Positions 1 through 11,553 of a DNA stretch of 34,181 bases are shown here, piece by piece. A program made the translations under genes and the position numbers. Numbering within the stretch: position 1 is the first letter of the stretch; every line of letters begins with the position of its first letter. This DNA is from Planctomycetota bacterium (lineage in GTDB: Bacteria; Planctomycetota; Phycisphaerae; WQYP01): positions 1 through 34,181 of the forward strand of contig JAKBMM010000033.1 of assembly GCA_021831565.1 (NCBI GenBank), read 5' to 3'. The notes beneath the pieces were generated by a model, which was not told the DNA's origin, did not search any database, and worked only from the letters and a program-made list of their open reading frames with translations.

Positions 1-99
1 ATCAAAGTGAGTGACGAAGAGCTCGCACGCCTGCGCTTGACCCCCCACCCCTTCCACGGAGACTGGAACTATACCTTATCGCCGGGCCGGCATAATTGA
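1..99 (+). CDS. C-terminal end of an ISAzo13/Rhodopirellula-type transposase (partial)
   Basis: Frame 1 is open from the first base to a TGA at 97-99 and encodes 32 residues. They include the motif HPFHGDWNYTLSPG. From memory, this resembles the conserved C-terminus of DDE transposases of the ISAzo13 (Rhodopirellula transposase) family, which usually end with a HGxWNYT-type motif. The start and catalytic core lie outside the window, so nothing can be said about activity. The stop is only 22 bases from the convergent argJ stop codon, so any right-end inverted repeat of the element would have to lie in or against the 3' end of argJ. In frame 2 the bases from 92 onward read IIEQVIVERALS, which could mean a frameshifted tail, but this is not demonstrable from one sequence. 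The family call rests on a short motif. Confidence 0.55.
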   Translation: MKVSDEELARLRLTPHPFHGDWNYTLSPGRHN

Positions 100-121
100 A
101 CAGGTTATTGTTGAGCGCGCC

Positions 122-1342
122 CTAAGTATGATAATCGGCATTGATTTCGATATAACGGCGGGAAAGATCGCAGGTGTAAACGCGGCATCGGCCTTTGCCA
201 CCGGTGCCCAGGTCCACGGTGATATCCAGCTCGCTTTGTTTCATAATCGCTTCCACGGCGGCCATATCCGCTTCCGTCGGCCGGCCGAGTTTGAATACCT
301 CAATGTCGCCGACGCGGCAGCGGGCGCGATCGGGATTCATTTTTGCTCCGCTGTAACCGGCGGCGCTGACGAAGCGCCCCCAGTTCGGATCGCCGCCGTG
401 AATGGCGGTTTTCACCAGCGGGCTGTTGGCGATGGCCAGGGCGGCTTGGCGCGCCTCGGTTTCGGAGGCGGCGCCGGTGACAAAAACACGCACGAGTTTG
501 GTGGCCCCTTCGCCATCCGCGGCGATCTGGCGGCAGAGCGAATCACATACCTCCCGCAACGCCGCGGTGAATTTTTTCCAGGCGGTCGATAGAAAAGTAA
601 TCCGGCGATTGCCCGCCAGGCCATTGGCCAGGCAGGCAAACATATCACTGGTGCTGGTGTGCTGATCGATGGTGAGGCAGTTAAACGTGTCGTGGGCGAC
701 AAGCCGGACCGCGGCCCGCAGCGCCGCGGCGTCGATAGCGGCGTCTGTGGCGACGAAGGCAAGCATGGTGGCCATGTTCGGCGCGATCATGCCCGATCCC
801 TTGCACCAACCGGTAATGGCGATCCGCCGGCCGGAGATGGATAGAACGGCCTGGGCGATTTTCCGGCGCGTATCGGTGGTGAGAATTCCCTGGGCAAATG
901 CCTGGGCGTGCTCGCGGGAATCGCCCAGAACACCGGCCAGACGCGCAATGCCGCCGCGCAGGGCGTCCATCGGCAGAAAACGGCCGATGACGCCGGTGCT
1001 GGCGGGAAGAATCTGGTTGGCGGCGGCGTCAAGGGCGATGGAGCGCAATGCGGCCGCGGTAAGAGAACACATCTCGCGGGCGTCGGAAAGGCCGCGCTCG
1101 CCGGTGCACACATTGGCGCGGCCGCTGTTGATGACGCAGGCATGCAGGATGCCGCGGCGAATATGGCGCTGGGCGACCACCACGGGGGCTCCGAGGATTT
1201 TGTTGGTGGTAAAGACGGCCGCGGCCGTCGCCGGCACGCGGCTGACCAGCATGGCCAGATCGGGCTTGCCGGATTCCTTAATTCCGCAATGCAAAGCGCC
1301 GGCAAGGAAACCGGGGGGGATTGTTATAATATCAGAATTCAT
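122..1342 (-). CDS. argJ: Bifunctional glutamate N-acetyltransferase / ornithine acetyltransferase (ArgJ)
   Basis: ArgJ moves the acetyl group from N-acetylornithine to glutamate, the recycling step of arginine biosynthesis in the cytoplasm. Bifunctional members can also use acetyl-CoA. The protein (406 residues from this start, normal for the family) shows the hallmark KGSGMIAPNMATMLAF block. ArgJ precursors cleave themselves before the Thr in this block (here about Thr192) to give alpha and beta chains. Other family blocks are the N-terminal GFLAGALHCGIK segment, the STGVIGRFLP motif, FNCLTIDQHTSTSD and GGDPNWGRF near the C-terminus. Two adjacent ATGs (1345 and 1342) are possible. An AGGTG sequence 5 to 8 bases upstream suits either, and I chose the second for spacing. 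A TTG further upstream is in frame but has no ribosome site. No other arg genes are visible nearby. Whether it is bifunctional or only monofunctional cannot be read from the sequence. Confidence 0.95.
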   Translation of the reverse strand: MNSDIITIPPGFLAGALHCGIKESGKPDLAMLVSRVPATAAAVFTTNKILGAPVVVAQRHIRRGILHACVINSGRANVCTGERGLSDAREMCSLTAAALRSIALDAAANQILPASTGVIGRFLPMDALRGGIARLAGVLGDSREHAQAFAQGILTTDTRRKIAQAVLSISGRRIAITGWCKGSGMIAPNMATMLAFVATDAAIDAAALRAAVRLVAHDTFNCLTIDQHTSTSDMFACLANGLAGNRRITFLSTAWKKFTAALREVCDSLCRQIAADGEGATKLVRVFVTGAASETEARQAALAIANSPLVKTAIHGGDPNWGRFVSAAGYSGAKMNPDRARCRVGDIEVFKLGRPTEADMAAVEAIMKQSELDITVDLGTGGKGRCRVYTCDLSRRYIEINADYHT

Positions 1343-9586: not shown

Positions 9587-10207
9587 TCAAAATCGCAGTG
9601 TGTTTTCCGGCGCAGGATGCGCCTGCAAATACCGGCTCACCATGGCCAGATAGGTGGCCGGTTCGTTGGGAATCGCTTCCAGTCCCAGTTTTCCGCGCAC
9701 CGCCAGCACGGCGTTTTCATCCGGCCCTTCAATTTCCACAAAGCGGCCCAGCACGGGTAATTCATCCAACTCCACCCGGCAATCGTCCAGCCGCCACGAT
9801 TCCCGGCGCTTCTCAAACGCCACCGTCGGCACAAAGCCCAAAGCTTGTAAAAAGCCGCCGGGCAGATCCGCCGGCGTCACCGTTAAATCAAACGAGGCGC
9901 GATTGTGCATCACCCCGCGGCCTTCCGGACCTTTCCAGGTTAAAAGCCCGGCGGGCGCGGCAGCGCCTTGGCGCCGGATCAGCCGCAAACGCAGCCCGCA
10001 GCCGGCGGCCCGCAAAGAGGCGTCCGGCCGATCATAAAAGGTATTCAATTCCACCACGCGTTCGATAAATTCCGCACTGGCCCGAAGCAAAGCCGCGCGC
10101 GGTAAATTCATATCCGGCACGCGGAGCTTGATCTCAATTTCGCGGGGCGCGGCGCTACCGGCGGGATTCACCGGCAAGCCGTGTGCGGGGGAGTCGGAGC
10201 GGGTCAT
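9587..10207 (-). CDS. CYTH-domain protein (triphosphate tunnel metalloenzyme; class IV cyclase or triphosphatase-like)
   Basis: CYTH proteins fold as a beta-tunnel and act on nucleoside or organic triphosphates with divalent metals. Known members include class IV adenylate cyclase (CyaB), thiamine triphosphatase and inorganic triphosphatases. This 206-residue protein has the diagnostic ExExK motif (Glu23, Glu25, Lys27 in REIEIKLRV). Further CYTH blocks follow: NTFYDRPDASLRAAG, GLRLR, TWKGP, FEKRRESW and the acidic strand RFVEIEGP. About 20 residues precede the domain. The start has GAGGA 5 bases upstream. The sequence best resembles the CyaB-like branch, but the actual substrate cannot be told. 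It is last in the minus-strand gene train and separated from the FIST gene by a palindromic element. Confidence 0.85.
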   Translation of the reverse strand: MTRSDSPAHGLPVNPAGSAAPREIEIKLRVPDMNLPRAALLRASAEFIERVVELNTFYDRPDASLRAAGCGLRLRLIRRQGAAAPAGLLTWKGPEGRGVMHNRASFDLTVTPADLPGGFLQALGFVPTVAFEKRRESWRLDDCRVELDELPVLGRFVEIEGPDENAVLAVRGKLGLEAIPNEPATYLAMVSRYLQAHPAPENTLRF

Positions 10208-10220
10208 GAATTCCTCGCTT

Positions 10221-10386
10221 TAAGGGCCGTCAAGAAATAACCTTTCCAATCTGACTTGTTCTTTTGGCCTCTGGCTACGTTGCTCACTCGTTACAGATCC
10301 CTGCGGATATGCTCCTCGCCGGCGCCTTGCCAGAGGCCAAAATCCCGGCGTCATATTTGTAAACCTTATTTCTTGACGGCCCCTTA
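10221..10386. repeat. Nested inverted-repeat element (MITE- or BIME-like)
   Basis: Outer arms: TAAGGGCCGTCAAGAAATAA (10221-10240) and its complement at 10366-10386, which carries one extra base. Inner arms: TTTTGGCCTCTGGC (10262-10275) and GCCAGAGGCCAAAA (10329-10342), perfect over 14 bp. Between the inner arms, 53 bases contain a further small hairpin (ATCC-CTGC-GGAT). The whole 166 bp can therefore fold into a long cruciform. It has no coding capacity. It lies between the CYTH and FIST genes, and its left-strand TTA (10384-10386) is the complement of the FIST stop codon. It is probably a mobile or dispersed palindromic element. Confidence 0.75.
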
Positions 10387-11553
10387 TCGAAACAGAGCCA
10401 GGCTGACCGTCTGGCCGTGAATGAAATTTCTGCCCCCGACCGGCCCGAGTTCGCCGGCGCAGAAAAACCCCGCCACCGGTATCGGGCCGAGGATATCGCC
10501 GAGCGCCTGGATATCATGGTTCGGCGTCTGAAACAAATGGGTCCCGCGTCCGTTGCAACTGAACATCAGCGCTCCCCGCGGCGCGTTGGACAGCAGCAGT
10601 TCTCCCTCCAGCAACAGCCGGAGGTCTTCGTTCGCCGTGCGGGCATCCTGCACCTGAAACTGTACGATCTGGCCGCTTTGCACCATATCCCCGATGGACA
10701 GACCGTGCGAGGGCCGATGGATTCCCAGAATGTTGCGCACCAGGAAATCGCCCCGCCCGAAGTTTCCTTTCCTTTCGTCGATCACCCGGCCGATCTGCAA
10801 TCCCCGCTGTTCCATCAGATCGCGGTCCGCCGGCGGCAGTTGGTCGATCATTTTCCGCAACGTCCGCAGCGCGGGCTCATGGTCGAGTTCTTCAATAATG
10901 TTATCATGTCCGCGTGTAATTATAAACGTTTTTCCGATGGGCCGGCACCCCTGCGAAACCACGCAATCCACCTCCAGCGGCCCGGCGAAGGAAACACCGA
11001 TCAGGCCGGAACTGAAGATATTATCGCCGATCGCCAGGCGCGTTTCGCCGGGGCGCATCATGCCGCTGGCCATACCGCCCACGATCGGAGCGTGGGGAAA
11101 CTCGCGCGAGCAGGCGTCCAGAAGCTGCACCACCGGCGTGGTGAAGGGATCGCCGAACATGAGCAACAGCCGCAGGTCGGGACCGGTCTCCAGCCGCGCG
11201 CGCAGCGCTTTGCCTTCGCCCATCAGCTCGGGCCATTCCTCTTCGGCGAAACGGAAGGGGCCGATGGTGACGCCCGGCAGCGATATCGCCATCGCGGAGA
11301 CCGCCGCCTGCCGCTCAATTTCCCGCCCCCCTCCCAGGACGCTCTCGGCTGTGCAGGCCAGCATGGACCGAGCGCCAAGCTGCCGGCCAATCTGGCCGGT
11401 GATCCCGCCAAAATGCTTCTGGAGGGCCGTGGAAACAAACAGCAAAAGCAGATCCGCCGGATCGCCTTCCAAGCCTTGCCGCAACTGTTGCGTTAATTCA
11501 CCAATAATTCGTCCCGGTTCTTCCTGGGAAGCAATGGCCGAAACCATTCGCAT
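10384..11553 (-). CDS. FIST-domain (FIST_N + FIST_C) sensory protein
   Basis: FIST domains are predicted small-ligand sensors, often attached to kinases or cyclases. Here the pair stands alone in 389 residues. The N-terminal FIST domain includes the GARSMLACTAESVLGGGRE segment and IVGGMASG. The C-terminal domain starts after LIGVSFAGPLEVDCVVSQG and ends with MFSCNGRG and GFFCAGELGPVGGRNFIHG, both typical of FIST_C. There is no membrane segment or output domain, so it would act through a partner. The start has AAGGAG 8 bases upstream. It follows the aroDE gene by 72 bases on the same strand. The stop codon lies inside the palindromic element arm. If that element inserted here, the original C-terminus may have been altered, though the end LALFR looks natural. 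Confidence 0.88.
   Translation of the reverse strand: MRMVSAIASQEEPGRIIGELTQQLRQGLEGDPADLLLLFVSTALQKHFGGITGQIGRQLGARSMLACTAESVLGGGREIERQAAVSAMAISLPGVTIGPFRFAEEEWPELMGEGKALRARLETGPDLRLLLMFGDPFTTPVVQLLDACSREFPHAPIVGGMASGMMRPGETRLAIGDNIFSSGLIGVSFAGPLEVDCVVSQGCRPIGKTFIITRGHDNIIEELDHEPALRTLRKMIDQLPPADRDLMEQRGLQIGRVIDERKGNFGRGDFLVRNILGIHRPSHGLSIGDMVQSGQIVQFQVQDARTANEDLRLLLEGELLLSNAPRGALMFSCNGRGTHLFQTPNHDIQALGDILGPIPVAGFFCAGELGPVGGRNFIHGQTVSLALFR

Follow-up and report, generated by a model that had tools for sequence, protein, structure and literature searches.

A planctomycete MITE with a conserved structured core and apparently exchangeable ends

MITEs are usually viewed as decayed copies of a single insertion sequence (IS), with functional ends around a middle of no importance. 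Some bacterial MITEs are mobilised by an IS acting in trans, such as RUP of Streptococcus pneumoniae with IS630-Spn1, and also NEMIS/Correia and Nezha (PMC2229807, PMC3733652). The REPs are palindromes of 20-40 bp that carry an unpaired GTAG or CGTC tag and lack the pair of terminal inverted repeats (TIRs) and target-site duplication (TSD). The GTAG types go with RAYT genes, and for the CGTC repeats the possibility that they are served by a wide range of transposases has also been raised (PMC3733652).

The element described here lies in the window, i.e. the whole stretch of 34,181 nucleotides that was analysed. Like RUP, NEMIS/Correia and Nezha, it is short and non-coding, bears TIRs and a TSD, is present in many copies, forms a hairpin and has ends similar to those of a candidate helper IS. 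Unlike them, it apparently has an ISAzo13-family helper and a TWA target of 3 bp, and its core is conserved across phyla among elements with different ends. It shares GG..AAATAA ends and TTA/TAA flanks with the ISAzo13 ISs (PF07592) of its bacterial family, whereas it has no transposase gene and its core is unseen in the fetched IS copies. As for the GTAG/CGTC REPs, the element is hairpin-forming and extragenic as they are, but it has TIRs and a TSD and no unpaired tag. No apparent description was found in the open-access literature on MITEs with Planctomycetes, Verrucomicrobia or ISAzo13 (subscription papers were outside the scope), and this repeat family of many planctomycete and verrucomicrobial genomes is apparently undescribed. 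What is new is the association with ISAzo13-type ISs and, more importantly, the occurrence in two phyla of a structured core that is conserved while the ends are exchangeable. In contrast to the usual view of MITEs, the middle is conserved here and the ends look replaceable. The change of transposase by a non-autonomous element becomes directly testable in genome data, and the core suggests that mobile DNA contains a structured motif under selection.

Limits, copies and insertion sites of the element

The initial annotation had placed an inverted-repeat element of 166 bp at positions 10221-10386. The element itself is confirmed, with the corrected limits 10223-10383 (161 bp), since the former ones also covered the right TSD and part (two bases) of the left TSD. 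The features are the following (coordinates, strand, description):

10220..10222, no strand, left target-site duplication TTA
10223..10383, no strand, mobile element of 161 bp, with 14 full copies in the host genome counting this one, and an empty site in G001
10223..10240, plus strand, left terminal inverted repeat, (G>A)GGGCCGTCAAGAAATAA
10242..10361, minus strand, module matched by the covariance model R1 (128 bits)
10262..10275, plus strand, inner arm of the core hairpin, pairs with 10329-10342
10273..10331, minus strand, 59-nt conserved core GGCAAGGCGC..GCAACGTAGCC
10287..10290, minus strand, CGAG, 3' strand of the inner tandem G.A step, faces 10315-10318 (alignment columns 84-87)
10315..10318, minus strand, CGAG, 5' strand of the inner tandem G.A step, faces 10287-10290 (alignment columns 46-49)
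10329..10342, plus strand, inner arm of the core hairpin, pairs with 10262-10275
10366..10383, minus strand, right terminal inverted repeat, GGGGCCGTCAAGAAATAA, 18 bp
10384..10386, no strand, right target-site duplication TTA, which reads as the FIST stop codon TAA on the minus strand

The two nested pairs of inverted arms that had been reported, the outer of about 20 bp with one extra base and the inner perfect over 14 bp, are both present. The outer arms (10224-10249/10357-10382) are complementary at 88% over 26 nt and the inner arms (10262-10275/10329-10342) at 100% over 14 nt. The element folds far below the shuffles: as RNA, the element strand reaches -70.5 kcal/mol versus -42.4 +/- 4.2 for shuffled sequences (z -6.7), and folded as DNA it has a z of -8.4 versus shuffled sequence. 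The position given between the CYTH and FIST genes is also correct, CYTH (9587-10207) and FIST (10384-11553) being co-directional on the minus strand. The element contains no transposase gene, and the comparison with the Rfam 15 covariance models gave no match at E values up to 1.

The host genome (G000; 2.8 Mb, 86 contigs) contains 14 full copies of the element at unrelated loci, together with one copy truncated at the end of a contig, half of another copy and a 38-bp fusion of the two ends alone. In the bacterial family, an exact 3-bp TSD, mostly TTA or TAA, flanks 22 of 26 copies. The genome G001, of the same genus, has an empty site where the window copy lies; the alignment covers 303 bases at 95%, contains TTA only once and already includes the stop codon of FIST. 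The sites of two other copies (L008 and L009) are likewise empty in G001, which also aligns across the join at 85-87% for L013 and L014. On the simplest reading of these alignments, the insertion in the window would be younger than the split from G001, the alternative being a precise loss in G001.

The anatomy of the element is that of a MITE, a known kind. This is how the initial annotation had read it, and the genome-wide search that it proposed has recovered many dispersed copies with TSDs, to which are added the empty orthologous site and the similar IS ends in the bacterial family. It had opposed to this reading a single copy, or a conservation restricted to the interval between CYTH and FIST; copies are found elsewhere and the G001 site is empty. 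Insertions on stop codons concern 10 of the 26 copies for 5.5 expected (P = 0.013). A special mechanism targeting stop codons was considered and rejected, as the excess largely follows from the TWA target and the avoidance of coding DNA.

Two observations concern other short repeats. The 38-bp palindrome consists of both ends only and sits on a stop codon (L028 1500-1545, G000:C40:71310-71350; also L330), and the orthologous G001 site carries a different short palindrome, TAAGAGCCTGTCTCAATAGACAGGCTCTTA. A GC-rich sequence of about 30 bp in the flank of the L004 copy (G000:C5; query bases 631-661) represents another short repeat family, found at dozens of places in G001 and at some in G009.

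The ISAzo13 family as candidate mobiliser

Of the 28 genomes of the bacterial family, 20 contain genes of ISAzo13-family transposases (PF07592) above the curated cut-off. The ISAzo13 copies of this family begin with GG..AAATAA and lie between TTA or TAA repeats (L138, L139, L142, L159). The nearest ISAzo13 ends (L160, L158 and L161) share 21-22 of 27 bases with the element, the best of 2000 shuffles reaching 17, and the ends of the core locus L171 match the ISAzo13 end L142 at 25 of 27 positions. No IS with exactly the ends of the element was found (closest 22/27). By eye, the core was not seen in the fetched ISAzo13 copies, and the resemblance noted to the IS is confined to the ends. Because these ends are similar and none is identical, we infer the helper from likeness only: an ISAzo13 transposase would move the element in trans. 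One ISAzo13 tail is found in the window itself:

1..122, plus strand, 3' end of an ISAzo13-family IS, with the last 32 transposase codons (1-99) and the terminal repeat; TAA at 123-125

This relic, located outside the element, is possibly a relative of the mobiliser. Several other contigs of the host genome begin with a similar ISAzo13 tail, as would be expected of a repeated IS that interrupts assemblies, so that contig ends mark IS copies.

Two other candidates were rejected. The DDE_Tnp_1 (PF01609) transposases were considered as helper, and a pair of the element's ends was found at none of their 30 loci. The single TIR matches do not represent full-length ISs, as no pair of transposase size was found and the paired ones are core-replaced or decayed elements. 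In ten more distant core-bearing genomes, ISAzo13 is present in four, with no matching ends where these are readable.

Distribution and structure of the core

The centre pattern of the element matches 15 contigs among 84,980 species. One match (L174) looks like chance. The others are metagenome-assembled genomes (MAGs), mostly labelled Verrucomicrobia, with one 'Phycisphaerae bacterium MAG 18' (L180) that is the same place as the copy of G023 (identical coordinates), a genome of the window's own family. The identity of RpoB to the host is mostly 51-52% in the Verrucomicrobia-labelled genomes (43% in one partial row), 60-62% in G128 and G208 of the same phylum and 69% in G339 of the same class, in a comparison that leaves out rows G137 and G223, which had been translated in a wrong frame (17-18% identity). 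These values agree with the Verrucomicrobia-labelled genomes forming a group distinct from that of the host. The titles of MAGs are unreliable, since Akkermansia muciniphila and Bordetella parapertussis occur as titles among the centre-pattern matches (L171, L174, L180 group).

The covariance model R1 was built from 35 cores and covers, besides the core, no more than the margin of the ends. With this model, at least 27 genomes in 25 genera were detected among 392 genomes of the host's phylum (Planctomycetota) at E <= 1e-6, a census that is a lower bound as nine candidates were scored per genome; 79 matched copies were fetched for comparison. Of 29 distant loci, 26 are still recovered by a core model that uses the sequence only, and the matches are therefore not merely any long hairpin. 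The genome G208 contains about 80 copies of a core-bearing element. The core pattern gave no exact match in viral contigs. Judged from these searches, the core is far more widely spread than the ends; most of the genomes surveyed are MAGs and some cross-phylum matches could be binning errors.

In the alignment of the 35 cores, 92.9% of the pair cells are standard and two-sided changes are observed in 15 of 31 pairs, versus 8.3 in shuffled and 5-8 in slid alignments. In 77 wider copies, two-sided changes occur in 35 of 36 pairs and in 637 cells (191 shuffled, 88-176 slid), in an alignment fitted to the model, which favours its covariation score. The central 'loop' can close, as CGAG faces CGAG to give the succession C-G, G.A, A.G, G-C. 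This inner tandem step is conserved in the 35 copies (G.A in 35 and A.G in 33), and the pair closing it switches as a unit (GC in 18 copies, CG in 16). The G.A pairs are assumed to be sheared. In the window copy, read from its sequence, the inner G.A step is intact and the outer one is decayed. Across the 77 copies, there is hardly any variation in the bases around the asymmetric internal loop (GGC-NAGGCGC with GCAACGNNGCC). A kink-turn was rejected as reading of this loop, since the bulge does not fall on the side of the G.A pairs that this motif requires. Part of the covariation of a palindrome can result from arm-to-arm conversion. Such conversion would erase the G.A mismatches while making standard pairs co-vary, and the persistence of G.A thus argues for selection.

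Ends of the core-bearing elements and readings of the family

Among the core copies with enough flank, 61 of 69, from 22 of 25 genomes, are flanked by an inverted repeat that exceeds the 99th percentile obtained with shuffled flanks. The core-bearing elements have at least two types of target, TWA and CTAG, and several kinds of ends: the TWA-type GG..AAATAA, the CTAG-type (CTAGTGTCC.., CTAGTGTGG..) and the CTAAGCGG-type. The ends in the Verrucomicrobia-labelled genomes mostly differ from those of the window, and G208 contains 165 CTAG-type ends. Within one genome, the loci L214 and L217 have cores that are 88% identical and ends at 50-54% (45 +/- 16% for unrelated 26-mers). Between different phyla, L003 and L177 share 56 of the 59 core bases; the window-type right end shares 14 of 26 bases with the L177 end. 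The locus L061 combines, by eye, the left end of one subtype with the subterminal right end of another, and is an apparent left/right chimera. From these comparisons, the whole resembles a superfamily of MITEs that have a structured core in common and whose ends can be exchanged.

Elements of 190-490 bp that have good ends but carry unrelated sequence within the core or in its place were found in two genomes:

G002 and G020: L090 (1630-2043), L091, L092, L093, L102, L103, L104, core-replaced or interrupted elements

Because some of these have intact ends (L093, L102-L104), the core is perhaps dispensable for movement; either it is not strictly required or these copies decayed after insertion.

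The presence of a conserved middle could be explained by an ordinary, internally deleted IS remnant, whose core would be old filler without any specific property, passed on vertically and by horizontal transfer. Known MITEs need only their ends for mobility, core-replaced elements exist, and horizontal transfer also accounts for the 56 identities of 59 between phyla. However, covariation in very diverged copies whose ends differ is hard to obtain without selection, as are near-invariant G.A mismatches and invariant loop bases, and no core-like sequence was seen in the fetched IS copies; we regard this explanation as unlikely.

Much less probable still is a palindrome of the REP/BIME type handled by a Y1 (RAYT) transposase, an option that the initial annotation had also offered. 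The element is indeed palindromic and extragenic, and Y1 genes exist in the host genome, but it measures 161 bp and not 20-40 bp, has TIRs with a 3-bp TSD and shows no GTAG or CGTC tag at its ends, and G208 gave no match to Y1_Tnp or tnpA(REP) despite its roughly 80 core-bearing copies. The strong fold and the position between two co-directional genes would suit an RNA structure that is a fixed part of the FIST-CYTH operon and acts in cis, for instance in processing or attenuation. As an origin, this is contradicted by G001, of the same genus, which has no element at the FIST-CYTH site, and by the copies at unrelated loci, and we consider it the most improbable of these explanations. The element may have a secondary effect on the transcript between CYTH and FIST.

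The element is probably moved by ISAzo13 and composed of a separable conserved core, most likely selected as a single strand, and of ends (hence a transposase) that apparently can change. An ISAzo13-family transposase made elsewhere would recognise the 18-bp ends (GGGGCCGTCAAGAAATAA) and insert the element at TTA or TAA with duplication of 3 bp; in the window, the insertion would have fallen on the stop codon of FIST, which the duplication left intact. The central hairpin is a separate module, kept in sequence and fold across many families of the phylum and in Verrucomicrobiota while the ends vary. Elements would thereby change their ends, and so their transposase, and retain the core, perhaps because the shared core allows recombination or template switching. 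Conservation of the core most likely reflects a selected property of its single-stranded form, RNA or extruded ssDNA. Because the core-replaced elements keep intact ends, this property may be other than transposase binding, perhaps the binding of a protein to the single strand or a lower cost of insertion. A wider proposal, which we advance only tentatively, is that the structured module (tandem sheared G.A, invariant asymmetric loop) persists as a passenger in at least two PVC phyla and has repeatedly gained new terminal repeats, thereby being served by several unrelated transposase families, its single strand being useful to itself or to the host, e.g. by binding a conserved protein or reducing harm to mRNAs.

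Concerning the CTAG-type ends, no partner was found, and no end pair of autonomous size is present among the G208 matches listed. The IS630 (PF13358) of G208 was rejected as partner of the CTAG-ended elements: the CTAG target and the GTG start are common to both, and the remainder of the end beyond GTG is different. Six near-identical copies of this IS630 (L297, L298, L301, L304, L306 and L307) directly adjoin a core-bearing CTAG-type element and use its terminal CTAG jointly with it. The core-bearing CTAG-type element may be a landing site for IS630.
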